Origin: a virus
Strand: one strand, 5' to 3'
DNA: 43,583 nucleotides
Virus record (IMG/VR): IMGVR_UViG_3300037247_001181
Coordinates: 1-43,583 of that record
Shown: piece after piece, positions 3,818 through 43,583 of the stretch
How positions within the stretch are numbered: position 1 is the stretch's first letter
Layout of the letters: the number at the start of each line of letters is the position of its first letter
The notes under the pieces: model-generated
The model's database searches: none
Told to the model about the DNA's origin: nothing
What the model saw: only the letters and a program-made list of their open reading frames with translations
Position numbers and translations under genes: made by a program

Positions 3818-5530
3818 TTATCCATTTTTATATTGCACTATATCATCACGATACAGACTCGTAGCAGGTTCGTAATTCAATTCACACATACCTATTTTGC
3901 CAATATCTTTAAATCTTATCTTCTGCACAATTACCTGAACATGTCTTTTTTTATCTTCTTCAAATTGCCTATGGATACAAATACCATTATCAGCCTTATT
4001 CCTAAAATGAGCCCCACCAGCTATTGAATACATATCCGGCGCATCATATTTTCCTTTTGCATTTTTCTGTAATTTTTGTGGATGAGCAACAATAAAAATA
4101 TGAATCCCATTTAATCTTCCGAACCTTCTTAATTTACCCAATTGTTTTGAAATGTATTGTGTTTCAGTCATTTTCCCGAAATCATGGCTAACTTCATTCC
4201 ATGGATCAATTATTAATGCATTGATTCCGCTTCGAAAAAGGGCTATTTTAGCCAATTCAATTATTTTATCAATAGTTGGGTCGTCATCTTCTGGAGGTTG
4301 GATAAAACTAATCTTTTTATCAAGATAATTACTTACTGATTCAATTGCTAATTTATCCATTCGTGGGAATCTTTCACCATATGAGGCAGAAAATGGTTGC
4401 TCTGTTACTTTCTCACACAGTGTTTGTATATGCCTTTCAATCGGCCAGTTTTCAGGACTATATACTCCAAATTTCCACCCACCATTATTGATAAGGTTAA
4501 TCATTAAACAGTCAACAAAATTTGATTTACCGCTGCTTGGCATACCTGTTATTATTGTAAATTCTCCTTCTCTTACTGAAAAATACTTATCTAAACTGTG
4601 CCAGCCTGTCGGAGTCCCTTTCTTAACTCCAAAGTCATAAATATCTTCAAGTTTATTTTTAAAATCAGAGGCAATAAAGAGTCCGTCTATTGGAATTGGT
4701 TTTGCATTTTTAATTAATTCCTTAACTGAATCACGTCCATTTTTAACGAGTGCTTCGTTTGCATCTTTACAACCTTCTGGATAAATTACCCGGTAACACC
4801 TTTCACAACCGATACGCCTTGCAAGTTCTTCCTCTGCTCTTTTCCCCGGCTTATCATCGTCAGTCGCAAGTATAATTTTTTTATATTTTCTCAAACAAGT
4901 CTCAGCAGAGTTAAGAAAATTAAATTTTGTTGTGTAATTATTTGAATTATCGGATGGGGCTCCGTCTGGAATTGAAACAACTTCTGAAAAACCTGATTCT
5001 TTAAATGACAATAAATCAATTTCACCCTCACATATAATCAATGTGTCAGATTCATTTTTCATATTATCAAAACCATAGAAACATTTTTCAGCATCTTTAG
5101 CTTGTCTGAAATTTTTATTCCCGTCACGGTATTTTATATTTACAACTATTCCATGTTTATAAAATGGGAATTGTATTGCGTTTACTTCTTTGTTTTCCCG
5201 TGGCATCCAAATTAAACCGTAGCCTATTTTTGCATCTTTAAGTGTTTGTTTTGAAATTCCACGGTTTTTAAAATATTTGATTACTTTTTCTGGAAGTATT
5301 TCTGATTCTACAAATTCAGGCAATTTATAACTTTTACCACTTAATCCTCCGGCGTAATTGCAATGATGACAAAACCACGTTCCATCAATCGTATTAACAG
5401 CTAAATCTTTAATATTCTGTTTTTTTCTGGTTGGTGTGCACTTAGGGCATAACGTTCTTGCTTGTGTTCCAGCTTGTCCGCTTAAATCAATGCCATAATC
5501 TTCAAATGATTTCATAGTGCTGATTTCCAT
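3818..5530 (-). CDS. Primase-helicase (TOPRIM + DnaB/TWINKLE-like)
   Basis: 570 aa bifunctional replication enzyme. The N-terminal zinc ribbon (C28-x2-C31, C54-x2-C57) binds template. The TOPRIM core has E168-G-E-I-D and D224-D-D, which make RNA primers. The C-terminal RecA-type helicase has Walker A GMPSSGKSN (329-337), Walker B ALIIDPWNE (438-446) and a His-Pro sensor AHPQK (482-486). The size and order match T7 gp4 and mitochondrial TWINKLE. It unwinds DNA at the fork and primes lagging-strand synthesis, probably with host DNA polymerase because no phage polymerase is seen. It overlaps the upstream initiator-like gene by 19 bases. M6 (5515) is an alternative start with a slightly better ribosome site. 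Confidence 0.93.
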   Translation of the reverse strand: MEISTMKSFEDYGIDLSGQAGTQARTLCPKCTPTRKKQNIKDLAVNTIDGTWFCHHCNYAGGLSGKSYKLPEFVESEILPEKVIKYFKNRGISKQTLKDAKIGYGLIWMPRENKEVNAIQFPFYKHGIVVNIKYRDGNKNFRQAKDAEKCFYGFDNMKNESDTLIICEGEIDLLSFKESGFSEVVSIPDGAPSDNSNNYTTKFNFLNSAETCLRKYKKIILATDDDKPGKRAEEELARRIGCERCYRVIYPEGCKDANEALVKNGRDSVKELIKNAKPIPIDGLFIASDFKNKLEDIYDFGVKKGTPTGWHSLDKYFSVREGEFTIITGMPSSGKSNFVDCLMINLINNGGWKFGVYSPENWPIERHIQTLCEKVTEQPFSASYGERFPRMDKLAIESVSNYLDKKISFIQPPEDDDPTIDKIIELAKIALFRSGINALIIDPWNEVSHDFGKMTETQYISKQLGKLRRFGRLNGIHIFIVAHPQKLQKNAKGKYDAPDMYSIAGGAHFRNKADNGICIHRQFEEDKKRHVQVIVQKIRFKDIGKIGMCELNYEPATSLYRDDIVQYKNG

Positions 5531-6228
5531 TCTTCTTCTGGTGAGTTATTATTATTTTGTTTATTTTTTATAGGGTAGAAGCTTGACCATCCGTTTATTA
5601 TAGCTTCTTCCAGAATAGTTTTTGAATCTTCTTCGTTGCCGTTTGTTAATTTATTAAGTTTGTTTACGAGCCCTGTGAAAGATCTTTGTGTAACTTTTTT
5701 CTTAAGAACTTCTCTATTGATAATAAAGTCACAAAATATATTAATTAAATCTTTGGAATAGGTTTCTGGAAATGGAAATTCTTTTATTAGTTTCTTTCTT
5801 TTACTTTCTAATACATTCTTGTTTGTGTCCTCCGGCTGTCCTCCGGCTGTCCTCCCGTTGTCCTTATTGGTGTCCTTTTTTTTATCATCACCCTGGTAAG
5901 ACTCCCAATTCAATATTGTTATAACACTATAATGGGTGTCCGGCTTGATGTCCAGATTTTCGAGTTTTCTTAACTTTTCGATTCTATTTCTTACAGTTGA
6001 TGTTTTCATTTTTAATTGTTTTGCGGCTGAATGTCTTCCAAAAATAAATTGACCCGGGAATATTTCAACCTCTGTTTCTGTTATTCCAGTTTTTACAGAT
6101 ACAAATCTTTTTTTGAATGAAGCTTTGCACAAACACCAGATCCAAACTTTTAACAAACCCTCGTTTCTAAAAACTTGAGACTTAAGTGTTTTCCTGTATA
6201 ATTTTAAATAGGTCAAATCTTCATGCAT
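5512..6228 (-). CDS. DnaD/lambda-O-like replication initiation protein
   Basis: 238 aa. The N-terminal winged-helix region (residues 1-115) has the usual phage pattern: GQFIFGRHSAAKQL, then a TVRNRIEKLRKL recognition helix and SVITILNWESYQ. A low-complexity linker (about 115-145) joins a C-terminal helical domain ending in SSFYPIKN, typical of DnaD-like loaders. Such proteins bind the phage origin and load the helicase, which is encoded immediately downstream with a 19-base overlap. The linker DNA holds seven TGTCC iterons in helical phase, so, as in lambda O, the origin may lie inside this gene. Start ATG at 6228, just after the stop of the preceding small gene. Confidence 0.82.
   Translation of the reverse strand: MHEDLTYLKLYRKTLKSQVFRNEGLLKVWIWCLCKASFKKRFVSVKTGITETEVEIFPGQFIFGRHSAAKQLKMKTSTVRNRIEKLRKLENLDIKPDTHYSVITILNWESYQGDDKKKDTNKDNGRTAGGQPEDTNKNVLESKRKKLIKEFPFPETYSKDLINIFCDFIINREVLKKKVTQRSFTGLVNKLNKLTNGNEEDSKTILEEAIINGWSSFYPIKNKQNNNNSPEEEWKSAL
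5826..5953 (-). repeat. Iteron array inside the initiator gene, candidate origin
   Basis: TGTCC (plus strand; GGACA on the coding strand) begins at 5826, 5837, 5848, 5859, 5871, 5937 and 5949: spacings 11, 11, 11, 12, then 66, then 12. The core unit is GGACAGCCGGA. The 11-bp period is out of frame with the codons, so the repetition is at DNA level, not peptide level. The downstream flank (5760-5825) is AT-rich with strong purine/pyrimidine strand bias. This is the same layout as lambda ori within gene O. Confidence 0.65.
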
Positions 6229-6577: not shown

Positions 6578-6589
6578 TTGTTTTTATTT
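6574..6589. repeat. 16-bp direct repeat flanking the adenine methyltransferase, copy 1
   Basis: TCAATTGTTTTTATTT, identical to 7358..7373. It overlaps the stop end of the methyltransferase gene. The pair brackets the gene exactly. Confidence 0.7.
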
Positions 6590-7348
6590 GAATAACTTCA
6601 TTTGTTTGGTTTCAAGTTCGATTCTTTTTGCTGATATTTCGCAATATTTTTCTTCTTTTTCAATCATTATCCATTTTCTGTTTAAATTCTCACATGCGGC
6701 TGCAGTAGTTGAAGAGCCTGAACAGAAATCAAGAACTATATCATTTTCTTTTGTGTAAGTTTTTATAAAATATTCCATTAAGGCAATAGGTTTTTGTGTC
6801 GGGTGCATCTTCCCGGTTCTTTGTTTATCAGAAGAGAATTTCAAAACACTTCTCGGGTACCGCTCGGTTGAATTATAAAATGTAGTTTTTATGGCCTTTC
6901 CATAACATTCAGAGTTTTCATTTCTTTTTGTTGCAGTTTTCTTTTTATGCCCTGAGGTTTTTATCGGGAAGTAATTAGGTAATTTATCATAAAAAATTAA
7001 AACATTTTCATGGGCTTTCATAGGCATTTTTTTTGCATTTAAAAATCCCGTAGCAGATGTTTTCTCCCATATCCATTCGTATTTTAACATTTCTAAATTT
7101 GAAGAACCAAGAACTTTATCAAATGGCGTTTGTGCTGTTAGTATTATAACTGTTTTATCTTTTTTTATTCTGCATAATTGGTACCACATCAAAGGTAAAT
7201 TTATAACAGAATCCCATTTGCATTGCGTGGTACCATAAGGAATGTCTGAAATAATAGTATCAATGCTTTTATTTTCTAAATGTGGCATTATCTCGAAACA
7301 ATCCCCATGGTATAATTTTCCGTTCTCATTTTCATAATACGGCTTCAT
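6584..7348 (-). CDS. DNA N6-adenine (or N4-cytosine) methyltransferase, beta type
   Basis: 254 aa. It has the catalytic motif D35-I-P-Y-G (DPPY class) near the N-terminus and the AdoMet-binding motif FCSGSSTT (208-215) near the C-terminus, preceded by HPTQKP (182-187). That is the beta-class order. It transfers a methyl group to an exocyclic amine of adenine or cytosine in a short DNA target, probably masking phage DNA from host restriction or controlling DNA events. There is no partner restriction gene. Start ATG with AAAGGT upstream. The gene is bracketed by a 16-bp direct repeat, which suggests a movable cassette. The target sequence cannot be read from here. Confidence 0.9.
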   Translation of the reverse strand: MKPYYENENGKLYHGDCFEIMPHLENKSIDTIISDIPYGTTQCKWDSVINLPLMWYQLCRIKKDKTVIILTAQTPFDKVLGSSNLEMLKYEWIWEKTSATGFLNAKKMPMKAHENVLIFYDKLPNYFPIKTSGHKKKTATKRNENSECYGKAIKTTFYNSTERYPRSVLKFSSDKQRTGKMHPTQKPIALMEYFIKTYTKENDIVLDFCSGSSTTAAACENLNRKWIMIEKEEKYCEISAKRIELETKQMKLFK

Positions 7349-7357
7349 ACTTACCTT

Positions 7358-7373
7358 TCAATTGTTTTTATTT
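7358..7373. repeat. 16-bp direct repeat flanking the adenine methyltransferase, copy 2
   Basis: TCAATTGTTTTTATTT, identical to 6574..6589, placed immediately upstream of the methyltransferase ribosome site. Confidence 0.7.
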
Positions 7374-7377
7374 ATAT

Positions 7378-7401
7378 GTTCCCGAAATCTGTTTCGGGGA
7401 C
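7378..7401. other. Hairpin between the two methyltransferase genes
   Basis: GTTCCCGAAA-TCTG-TTTCGGGGAC: a 10-bp stem (one T-G pair on the plus strand, one mismatch on the minus strand) with a 4-base loop. No T-run follows in the direction of the genes, so it is not a classic terminator for them. It may be an RNA processing element or an antisense signal. Confidence 0.5.
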
Positions 7402-7436
7402 ATGGTTTAATTTTTTGTTATTGTTTGATTTATAGT

Positions 7437-8324
7437 TCACTTTATTCCTTTCAAAATATGTGCAATTACGTCTATTGTAAATCCATTCCCGAGCATCATG
7501 TAGCGTCGCGTATCGCTCATCATCCTTTTTAACCATGGGATTAAAGTGAAATTACATGGAACAGTTTGAAGCATTTCAGCTTCTTTAGGTGTCGCCATTC
7601 GTCTTTTGTTATTAATCTGAAGCATACTTCTTTTTCCGTCACATCCCTTGTGATAATTCGCATCTAAATTTTTGAATTTAGTATGTTTAAATTCAGATTC
7701 GTCTATTATACCAGACCTAAACCCAAAACCTCTCTCCTTAGACCTTATTAATATTTTTTGCATTGATAATTCTGTTTTTTCTGTAAAAAAATATTTATCG
7801 TCAACCACTGTAGATATAATACTATCAAGATATATTTCTTTATCTTTAGGTATTTCTGTAGGAATATTTGTCCAGTAATACCTCTTTCTCTCAAGGGCAG
7901 AAACTAATTTTGAATTAATAACTATAGGAGAAACACCCATTATTTTTGTTATAATATCCCTATCTACATTTTTCATACTCCCAACATTTTCTAATAAAAA
8001 ATTATCTGGATCTATTTGATCTTTCAGGCGTACATATTCATAAAATAATTTAGATTTAATTCCTTTCAGTCCCCTACCATTGATCTTTGCTCCACTTAAA
8101 TCGTTACAAGGCGAGCCTCCTATTAATAAATTTATATTATGATGTTTGAAAATATTAACCTTCTCAACGCCCCCTAATTGAATTGTCTTTGGGTAATGAT
8201 ACTGAGCTACCGCCATGGAATACTTATCAATTTCAGATGCATAGTAATTATCAATTTCTATATTAGCCCTCCCAAGCGCAATTTGGGCACCGGATAGTCC
8301 ATCAAATAAACTTAATACGTTCAC
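7437..8324 (-). CDS. DNA C5-cytosine methyltransferase
   Basis: 295 aa with the ordered C5 motifs: I LSLFDGLSGAQIAL (4-17); IV G-G-S-P-C73-N-D-L-S with catalytic Cys; VI E112-N-V; VIII ERKRYYWTN (145-153); IX RRMATPKEAEMLQ; X GNGFTIDVIAHIL. Most bacterial enzymes have PCQ; the PCN here and the short RYYWTN region resemble the phage/Dnmt3-like branch, with a very short target-recognition domain. Start is GTG (8322..8324), 6 bases after AGGAGGG and overlapping the stop of the small upstream membrane gene. It has no cognate restriction enzyme, so protection of phage DNA is the likely role. Confidence 0.9.
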   Translation of the reverse strand: MNVLSLFDGLSGAQIALGRANIEIDNYYASEIDKYSMAVAQYHYPKTIQLGGVEKVNIFKHHNINLLIGGSPCNDLSGAKINGRGLKGIKSKLFYEYVRLKDQIDPDNFLLENVGSMKNVDRDIITKIMGVSPIVINSKLVSALERKRYYWTNIPTEIPKDKEIYLDSIISTVVDDKYFFTEKTELSMQKILIRSKERGFGFRSGIIDESEFKHTKFKNLDANYHKGCDGKRSMLQINNKRRMATPKEAEMLQTVPCNFTLIPWLKRMMSDTRRYMMLGNGFTIDVIAHILKGIK

Positions 8325-8913: not shown

Positions 8914-9291
8914 TTATTTTATTTTTAAATCAATATCAGGAATGATTGATTGTGGCTTGAAAATAACTCTATAGTGATATGCACTAACATCAGCAGATTC
9001 CAATTGCTCAACAAAAGGAAAAACGTTATCCGATCTGCCTAAATAATGTTTTTTATACGAATTGGGTCCGGTTTTAACAGTTACTGTGAATTTATTTGTG
9101 AAAAATTCAACCGAGCAGAAACCTTCAATAGATAAAATATATTGATCAGTGATTCCGTTGTAAAAAACAACACGTCTATATATTTCAAACTGGTCTGCTG
9201 CTTTGGAAAGGTTGCTTGATGCCACACGAGCGTCTGTATCACAACCGAAAAAAATACTTATGATAATTACTAATAATAAAAATTTCTTCAT
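8914..9291 (-). CDS. Phage beta-sandwich lipoprotein
   Basis: 125 aa with a lipoprotein signal (MKKFLLLVIIISIFFGC, Cys at 17). The mature part contains a run I recall as conserved among phage and prophage proteins called beta-sandwich lipoproteins: SKAADQFEIYRRVVFYNGIT, then IEGFCS, KKHYLGRSDNV and YRVIFKPQSIIPDI. It would be anchored in a host membrane, where phage lipoproteins commonly block superinfection; the role here is inferred. It is the first gene after a strong leftward promoter (TTGACA, 17 bp, TAGGGT) with GAGGAG upstream of the ATG, so it is made early and strongly. Confidence 0.75.
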   Translation of the reverse strand: MKKFLLLVIIISIFFGCDTDARVASSNLSKAADQFEIYRRVVFYNGITDQYILSIEGFCSVEFFTNKFTVTVKTGPNSYKKHYLGRSDNVFPFVEQLESADVSAYHYRVIFKPQSIIPDIDLKIK

Positions 9292-14485: not shown

Positions 14486-15151
14486 ATGAAAACAAAAGAC
14501 GGAATAGAAACAAAAATAGGCAATTATTATTATATAGAGAATGGGCAGGTTGTATATTTGAACAATACAGCAACAGACGCACACGGCAATACTGTTTTTG
14601 TAGTAACGCCATTCTTTGAGGGTGAAACGATGGCTGTTAGTGGTGATGGTGGCAGACATTCAGAATATACAGCAAGATATGAACACGAAGGTAAAGAAAT
14701 GCTCGTGAATGACATCTTTGATTCAGAGCCGCTCGAAAAATTGGGTGCAAGATATAAAGAGAAATTAAAAGATATCCACCACATAGGCTTATCCGTTGGC
14801 ATCTTAACATCAGAGTTAAGCAGTTGCGAAAAAGTCAAATCAAAATTAAGAATAGATATTGATGGACTGAAGAAACTACATGAAGTTGAGCATAGAGAAT
14901 ATAAAGAAAATAAAGAAATTTTAGAGAATTTAAAAGAAGATGTTGCGGAAAAAAGACAAAAATTGAGTGAGCTTGAGGACTCAATAGCAGATTTAAAAAA
15001 CGAAGATGTATCAACATTGATTAGTAAGACTGAAATAATGAGACTAAATAAAAGAGATTATAAACTTAATTGTCTTGAAGCCGGTGGGGTTGATAATTGG
15101 GAGTGGTTTGATGAGTCATTAAAAGACTTTAGAGAAAGGTATCCGGGTTAA
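14486..15151 (+). CDS. Unknown protein with coiled coil, 221 aa
   Basis: The N-terminal 90 residues are beta-rich ('IGNYYYIENGQVVYLN', 'VFVVTPFFEG'). Residues 110-180 form a long Glu/Lys/Leu coiled coil, and the C-terminus is a short Trp/Asp-rich tail. No membrane segment and no family recognised. It has a GGAG-type site and lies in the rightward unit after Rha. Confidence 0.7.
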   Translation: MKTKDGIETKIGNYYYIENGQVVYLNNTATDAHGNTVFVVTPFFEGETMAVSGDGGRHSEYTARYEHEGKEMLVNDIFDSEPLEKLGARYKEKLKDIHHIGLSVGILTSELSSCEKVKSKLRIDIDGLKKLHEVEHREYKENKEILENLKEDVAEKRQKLSELEDSIADLKNEDVSTLISKTEIMRLNKRDYKLNCLEAGGVDNWEWFDESLKDFRERYPG

Positions 15152-28112: not shown

Positions 28113-28730
28113 TTATTTTGAGTATTCTTCCCTACTTCCATTCATATCTTTTTCATAATGATAATCAACAAATTTAACAAGAACATCACCTGATACAACA
28201 TTATCGTCCCTATAAAATATCATATCTAAATTAGCACTAATTGTTTCATTTAATGGTGCGCTTATATCAGGGAATGGGATTATTTGTATAATAGAGCCTG
28301 AAACATACGTGTAGACAAGTGATTCTCCGCTTGTGTCAATGGTCGTAAAGTTTGGTATAGATTGGCCATTTTTATAAAGTCTATAATCAATTTTAAAAAT
28401 AGGTATGTCGGATGAATCTTGAACAAAGTGGACATGCATCTTTATAGCCATGTCAAGTTTTTTTTCGTGTGACATTTGGTCATTCACATAAACTTTTTCA
28501 GATGCATCATTTTGCGGAAATAATAAGCCTACATTCGTCAAATCAAAATCAGGTTTTGAAAGCGCACCAAGCCGTGTTGATGTCATTGGAAAGCTTTTAT
28601 CGTTCCAGACTGTAGCGTCACCGTATGAAACAATGGTTCCATCTTCTTCAATATGGGTATAGTCTCCCGACTTAACAGATCCAACTTTTAACCATTTAAA
28701 AATATAGCTTCTTAAAATAGAATCAATCAT
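28113..28730 (-). CDS. Unknown structural protein, 205 aa
   Basis: Beta-rich protein between the head-decoration genes and the tail gatekeeper. Features: 'GDATVWNDKSFPMTSTRLG', 'DMAIKMHVHFVQDSSDIPIFKIDYRLYKNGQ' and a jelly-roll-like alternation. I recall similar proteins in podovirus structural modules but cannot name the family. A head-neck or minor capsid role is inferred from position. Its start is three bases from the 107-aa gene's stop. Confidence 0.7.
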   Translation of the reverse strand: MIDSILRSYIFKWLKVGSVKSGDYTHIEEDGTIVSYGDATVWNDKSFPMTSTRLGALSKPDFDLTNVGLLFPQNDASEKVYVNDQMSHEKKLDMAIKMHVHFVQDSSDIPIFKIDYRLYKNGQSIPNFTTIDTSGESLVYTYVSGSIIQIIPFPDISAPLNETISANLDMIFYRDDNVVSGDVLVKFVDYHYEKDMNGSREEYSK

Positions 28731-43351: not shown

Positions 43352-43583
43352 ATGGATTTTAAATACAAATACAAAAATGTAAAATTGACCATCTTGGATC
43401 TATTAAAAAACGGAATTCCGTTCACGATATCGAAAACAACTATCTCGACATGGAACTCTAAAAACACAAAAATAATAGCTGTGTATTATCGCAAAGATAA
43501 TTCTCTGCATACCGGGAAAGCTATCCCTGAAAAAACACTGAAAAAATACATAATAACACCTGGGGAAAAAATCAGGAGGGAAG
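43352..43583 (+). CDS. N-terminal part of the 140-aa RHH-like protein (continues at 1)
   Basis: ATG 43352 with GGGGAA about 6 bases upstream. The first 35 codons (MDFKYKYKNVKLTILDLLKN...) precede the duplicated region at 43457; after that the frame is identical to 1..127 and continues to the stop at 318. Within the raw window it runs off the end and looks truncated, but the gene is complete on the circular genome. Confidence 0.75.
   Translation, partial: MDFKYKYKNVKLTILDLLKNGIPFTISKTTISTWNSKNTKIIAVYYRKDNSLHTGKAIPEKTLKKYIITPGEKIRRE
43457..43583. repeat. Terminal direct repeat, right copy
   Basis: Exact copy of bases 1..127. Remove one copy to obtain the 43,456-bp circle. Confidence 0.95.

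Follow-up and report, generated by a model that had tools for sequence, protein, structure and literature searches.

A probable iteron-type replication origin of 11-bp direct repeats inside the initiator gene of a phage

The phage described here very probably starts its DNA replication at 11-bp repeats within the very gene whose protein product would recognise them. The window, which is the whole analysed stretch of 43,583 nucleotides (IMG/VR record IMGVR_UViG_3300037247_001181), contains an array of GGACA boxes in the initiator gene, behind the part that encodes a winged-helix domain, and related phages keep this layout, with repeats conserved as nucleic acid and followed by a conserved A-rich junction. 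The array, embedded as it is in the initiator gene, is most likely a replication origin of the iteron type, a reading to which we give a probability of about 0.86 from sequence comparison and analogy with known origins. The best reading is an origin that functions in the manner of lambda ori, with direct repeats of 11 bp as its iterons. Following the paradigm of lambda and the iteron plasmids (PMC5043065), the array would bind the initiator, and unwinding, helicase loading and replication start would follow next to it.

The box array in the window

On the coding (minus) strand of the initiator gene, GGACA boxes start at 5953, 5941, 5875, 5863, 5852, 5841 and 5830, and their spacings along the gene are 12, 66 (6 x 11), 12, 11, 11 and 11 bp. 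They are the seven TGTCC boxes that an earlier, sequence-only reading of this DNA had listed at 5826, 5837, 5848, 5859, 5871, 5937 and 5949, and every one of them is present. The main iteron array is GGACACCAATAA GGACAACGGGA GGACAGCCGGA GGACAGCCGGA GGACA at 5826-5875 (-), with a per-locus p = 0.003 against synonymous shuffles, and the upstream pair is GGACATCAAGCC GGACACCCATTA, with 12-bp spacing, in wing-coding codons at 5930-5953 (-). The boxes had all been assigned to the linker-coding part of the gene. This is right for the five main boxes (5826-5875), which occupy linker codons 118-134, and wrong for the pair at 5937 and 5949, which occupies codons 92-97; in the AlphaFold model these encode the first strand of the wing hairpin and its turn.

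The 5-mer GGACA itself is not enriched: the window has 52 copies, with 50.6 expected. The pattern GGACA-N6-GGACA is found three times, always within the initiator-gene array, against 0.02 expected. Seven same-strand boxes fall within 128 bp here, and the highest number reached in 200 first-order Markov sequences is four. When any non-trivial 5-mer with at least four copies at 11/12-bp spacing is considered, the GGACA array is the sole chain window-wide. The boxes occupy all three codon phases, so the 11-bp period is not a codon-phase repeat. By inspection, neither the array of the window nor those of its relatives contain consistent dyads, and an exact 20-mer of the array is absent from the viral contigs searched.

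GC skew, which had been suggested as a check, tracks gene orientation in the window and marks no origin, and was rejected as an origin marker. The first and last 127 bases of the window form an exact direct terminal repeat (1-127 = 43457-43583). With such identical ends, the assembly is probably complete and circular (permuted), unless its ends overlap by the assembler word length, and no rival array would have been missed past them.

The initiator protein and its gene neighbourhood

The initiator gene (5512-6228, -) encodes a protein of 238 residues of the DnaD/O-like helicase-loader type with a winged-helix N-terminus, as indicated by profile matches to phrog_2514, ‘DnaD-like helicase loader’ (E 3.5e-26, residues 7-146), and phrog_678, ‘replication initiation O-like’ (E 5e-8, residues 100-229), and by the AlphaFold model (23-row alignment, pLDDT 78.6, pTM 0.49). 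The winged-helix DNA-binding domain comprises codons 1-112 (5893-6228, -) and is modelled as helices plus a wing hairpin (E92-96/E101-105), with pLDDT 90+ for most of residues 20-110. The linker, codons 113-135 (5824-5892, -), is predicted to be disordered, with pLDDT <50 at residues 116-130. It is followed by an O-like C-terminal helical domain (5578-5823, -; helices 136-217), which alone matches phrog_678 with E 5e-9. A sequence search found no solved structure of a relative, and the fold matches of the winged helix are generic winged helices, none with an E below 0.001.

The next gene downstream overlaps the initiator gene and encodes a Toprim/DnaB-type primase-helicase (3818-5530, -; phrog_239, E 2.6e-95; PF13155, PF03796). 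No relatives were found when they were sought through this primase-helicase. Two tandem DNA methyltransferases, one of the N6/N4 type and one of the C5 type, are encoded just upstream of the initiator gene (6584-8324, -). The protein at 8914-9291 (-) matches PF25682 (E 6e-50) and phrog_478, labelled as site-specific recombination directionality factor, a match that hints at a temperate phage. A 221-residue protein at 14486-15151 (+) has a C-terminal domain like T7 gp5.9, a RecBCD inhibitor (PF25708, E 2e-13), and its gene sits downstream of genes for an ERF annealing protein and a YqaJ nuclease.

Repeats in related initiator genes

Six close relatives come from IMG/VR. The collection was then widened with named phages, GTDB genomes and further IMG/VR records, and the usable set consists of 60 genes that form 40 clusters at 75% identity. 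Nearly all relatives have, by eye, repeats of 11-12 bp right behind an NWxxYQ motif, and the repeat units differ by relative, being GGACAACAAAT in L004 and L005, CCGACAACAAA in L010, TAACCAGCAGC in L055 and GGGCCAGCAAG in L064. In the 108 nt after NWxxYQ, the lag-11 self-match over the 40 clusters is 0.484 against 0.393 in shuffles that preserve protein and codon usage (z 14.7), and z is 12.6 at lag 22. Comparison of the linker DNA in relatives, which the sequence-only reading had proposed, is favourable to it: a register-free test for four units at 11/12 spacing, made against synonymous shuffles, reaches p <= 0.05 in 37 of the 40 clusters. Relatives that keep the protein and have lost the iterons were looked for among these clusters, and the three that miss significance in the four-unit test (L002, L017 and L062) have arrays that are weak rather than clearly empty. 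Chains of at least three boxes at 11/12 spacing are present in 30/40 clusters, against 4.8 (maximum 9) in shuffles, and in none of the 40 when only nucleotides 1-258 of these genes are taken.

Related phages from several bacterial phyla carry the same layout. Small plasmids living on the initiator gene alone were not found, and the matching plasmid records are all 39-263 kb long. The relative L111 has a 12-bp array (GTGCACCGCAAC) in codon frame, which gives peptide repeats (APQR three times), and its junction is read as HKQECKE.

The junction and the A-rich tract

In relatives, an A-rich junction, (C)ACAAACAAGAATGTAAAG, lies behind the array. The junction of the window, CACAAACAAGAATGTA at 5812-5827 (-), overlaps the last box and occurs in exact form nowhere else in the window. 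Directly behind the last box, CACAAACAAGAATGTAAAGAA or a near-match is present in most relatives, and at least 14 of 21 positions agree in 56 of the 60 genes. The junction is read in three frames across relatives and encodes different peptides, which are TNKNVKN in most of them, HKQECKN/HKQEGKE-like in L046, L055, L061 and L047, and PQTRMYK/PQTRSKEG in L058 and L060. L047 (HKQECKE) and L054 (NTNKNVKN), which belong to one 75% cluster, have identical 21-mers (21/21) in different frames, and at least four changes of junction frame are required on the winged-helix tree. Since the junction is common to three frames with different peptides, it is conserved as nucleic acid and not as peptide. In the open-access literature searched, its sequence is in no relevant paper.

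An independent check searched viral contigs with the 23-mer junction DNA alone, without any protein, and returned 110 stretches, from which 80 loci were read. All 80 have an open frame across the junction, and 72 have a [YF]Q motif at most 60 residues upstream of it. Upstream sequence was long enough in 38 clusters, nearly all of which have an array (lag 11 z 19.8). The boxes vary widely among these loci (TGTCCAGCAAA, GACCACTGAAA, TGCACCGCAACG), and the junction is fixed there by the query, so this search shows the neighbours of the junction and not its variability.

The sequence-only reading had also described an AT-rich, strand-biased tract after the array. Such a tract, a probable unwinding region, is real though modest at 5764-5823 (-): its 60 nt are 77% AT, with an A-T skew of 0.43, compared with ~69% AT elsewhere in the gene. 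In 35/35 relatives, AT is higher in the 60 nt behind the junction than in the N-terminal part of the gene, and A-bias is higher there in 34/35.

Comparison with known origins

The window has the features of the general kind of origin that is embedded in an initiator gene, namely at least three direct repeats in phase within the coding sequence of the initiator, conserved at the nucleic-acid level, and an adjoining AT-rich, strand-biased tract. The closest counterparts are the origins of the phage L/Sf6/HK620 type, in gene 18 (O-like) of P22-like/lambdoid phages. In Sf6, a putative rep_origin is annotated directly behind the winged-helix domain (28385-28480), and its sequence contains two groups of TTGTCCAACGG repeats with 11-bp spacing, with ATAAACAATAATATAAATAAT behind them. 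Gene 18 of Salmonella phage L contains six imprecise 11-bp repeats (TGTCCAACGGA), which were called the likely origin (PMC8022706). The winged helix of L010 matches the O/gp18 proteins of Sf6, ST64T, HK629, HK75 and mEp234 (E 1e-8 to 1e-7), while the window protein itself has no lambdoid O match at E 1e-5 and is tied to gp18/gene 43 only through the intermediate L010. As in these phages, the window has 11-bp direct repeats immediately after a winged helix, which is probably related to theirs, an A-rich tract past the repeats (AAACAATAATATAA in phage L and Sf6) and a helicase gene next to them. The box sequence and the C-terminal domain differ, and Sf6 and ST64T have two sub-arrays.

In lambda, the iterons are located at codons ~117-145 of O (L075 locus 435-519), compared with codons 118-134 in the window. 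Lambda also has an A-rich coding strand after the iterons and an initiator that binds within its own gene, as the window protein would do by analogy. Lambda ori has four dyad iterons of ~18-20 bp that are bound by O dimers (PMC5043065), whereas the window has direct repeats of 11-12 bp without consistent dyads, and the neighbouring gene encodes a primase-helicase (phrog_239) and not a gene P-type helicase loader. In Stx-phage, O binds iterons inside O, and the AT-rich part is required for opening and not for binding (PMC7466680). The likeness to lambda on which the sequence-only reading was built stands for place and layout, with differences in the type of repeat (11-bp direct repeats, not ~18-20 bp dyads) and in the two boxes in the wing. 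The origin that it proposed is supported by the same layout at the annotated rep_origin of Sf6 and at the likely origin of phage L.

The Rep proteins of the lactococcal phages Tuc2009 and TP901-1 are DnaD-like helicase loaders, as in the window, and the Tuc2009 record states that the gene ‘contains origin of replication’. These genes have another N-terminal domain, irregular repeats and no junction, and both proteins were rejected as direct homologues because their N-terminal domains differ. Iteron plasmids and the rep-ori of phage satellites (PICIs) share with the window phased short direct repeats and an AT-rich melting region, but their iterons are outside the initiator gene and those of the window are inside. 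In PICIs, the iterons are found 3' of rep, in two sets flanking the AT region (PMC6092414).

Given the precedents of Sf6, phage L, lambda and Stx-phage, the kind of origin is known, and this phage adds another member, whose anatomy is most like that of phage L and Sf6. The conserved junction, the synonymous constraint in wing codons and the swapping of C-terminal domains beside the origin are new to us. Our search was confined to open-access papers, and other literature may already have noted how general the 11-bp layout is; phage replication modules were reportedly reviewed by Weigel and Seitz in 2006, in a paper that PMC7466680 cites.

Proposed mechanism and alternative functions

In the proposed mechanism, copies of the winged-helix domain would line up on one face of the DNA helix, each bound to one 11-12 bp GGACA repeat per turn of the linker-coding DNA. 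They would probably also bind the box pair in the wing-coding DNA, some six turns further upstream. A single uninterrupted complex that includes the wing pair would fit both the 11-bp helical phasing and the gap of 66 bp, or six units. This complex would strain the DNA and open the adjacent A-rich tract, starting at the ACAAACAAGAATGTA junction, and the C-terminal domain would help to place the primase-helicase of the phage, encoded by the next gene, on the exposed strand.

The protein could instead bind its own gene as an internal operator, limiting expression or replication, with the true origin elsewhere. Iteron binding, as with the iterons of plasmids, often has a control role as well, and the wing-codon pair upstream of the main array could be a roadblock. 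An operator is nevertheless unlikely, since the complete genome contains no other 11/12-bp array and related genes are annotated (Sf6) or described (phage L) as holders of an origin, and it would leave the conserved A-rich junction right behind the array unexplained.

It is very improbable that the repeats are a peptide-level feature, a flexible Q/N/T-rich linker grown by repeat slippage and without DNA function. Disordered linkers tolerate repeats and this one is predicted to be disordered, but a period of 11 breaks the codon frame, the signal is above that of synonymous-codon shuffles which preserve the peptide, and the junction is found in three frames with different peptides. The peptide-repeat reading, which the sequence-only reading had already dismissed because of the 11-bp period, is largely refuted by these shuffles and frame changes, and was rejected. 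The chance that the strand-specific repeats and the junction act in the mRNA, by binding, processing or translation control, is just as slight. The period of one helical turn and the winged helix, a DNA-binding fold, both suit binding to DNA, and annotated or proposed origins are located at that place in related genes; in favour of a role in mRNA are the strand specificity of the element and its position within a transcribed gene, and sequence alone does not separate DNA-level from RNA-level constraint.

Wing codons and exchange of C-terminal domains

Synonymous sites were scanned in 73 codons around NWxxYQ (-66 to +6) over the 40 clusters. Most of these codons are unremarkable, and constraint is seen at few places. 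The wing codons -14,-13 (GACATC) and -10 to -8 are constrained with z -3.5 to -9.5, and codons -10 to -8 (xxC AAC AAA) have z -9.5, -6.4 and -9.2. Both sets are box-like and match the upstream pair of the window. A third constrained set, codons -5 to -2 (GTT GTA/ATA ACC ATT), with z -9.4 at -4, does not resemble a box; it may be a -10-like element or a further contact site. Its counterpart in the window is GTTATAAC at 5918-5925, within 5911-5928 (-). Isolated constrained codons are -43, -35, -20 and +3. The likeness of the wing box to the array of its own gene is 0.74 against 0.29 in shuffles, with a naive z of 5.4 that ignores kinship. This is a hint, which we do not put forward as a claim, that the wing box co-varies with the array of the same gene, since related sequences inflate z and no more than two independent pairs on the tree are well supported.

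The winged helix with its array is found in front of at least four different C-terminal parts, which are O-like of phrog_678 (window, L010), O-like of phrog_345 (L025, L061), DnaD/DnaB_2 (L033, L053, L068) and phrog_270 (L008, L011, L014). The array of the putative origin is located at the point where the C-terminal part is swapped.

With the array read as an origin, we tentatively suggest that phages of several phyla share a two-part code, in which fast-changing 11-bp iterons, particular to each winged helix, are combined with a near-invariant junction (ACAAACAAGAATGTAAAG) as a common signal for unwinding or helicase entry. The junction would be sharp enough for finding origins by DNA only, and the C-terminal helicase-contact domains would be swapped beside it. 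The origins of many uncultured phages could then be predicted by looking in DnaD/O-like genes for an 11-bp array that ends in ACAAACAAGAATG, and the odd Q/N/T-rich linkers of these initiators would be explained as the read-through of an origin. The binding domain of the initiator and its binding sites would travel as a unit, with the helicase-contact domain being swapped, and the conserved junction is a testable candidate for a role in strand opening. In L072, L070 and L074, from Listeria, Lactobacillus and Pseudoalteromonas phages, C-termini that by eye resemble that of lambda O (FW..NI.SP..LR.K) are fused to a winged helix with 11-bp iterons.
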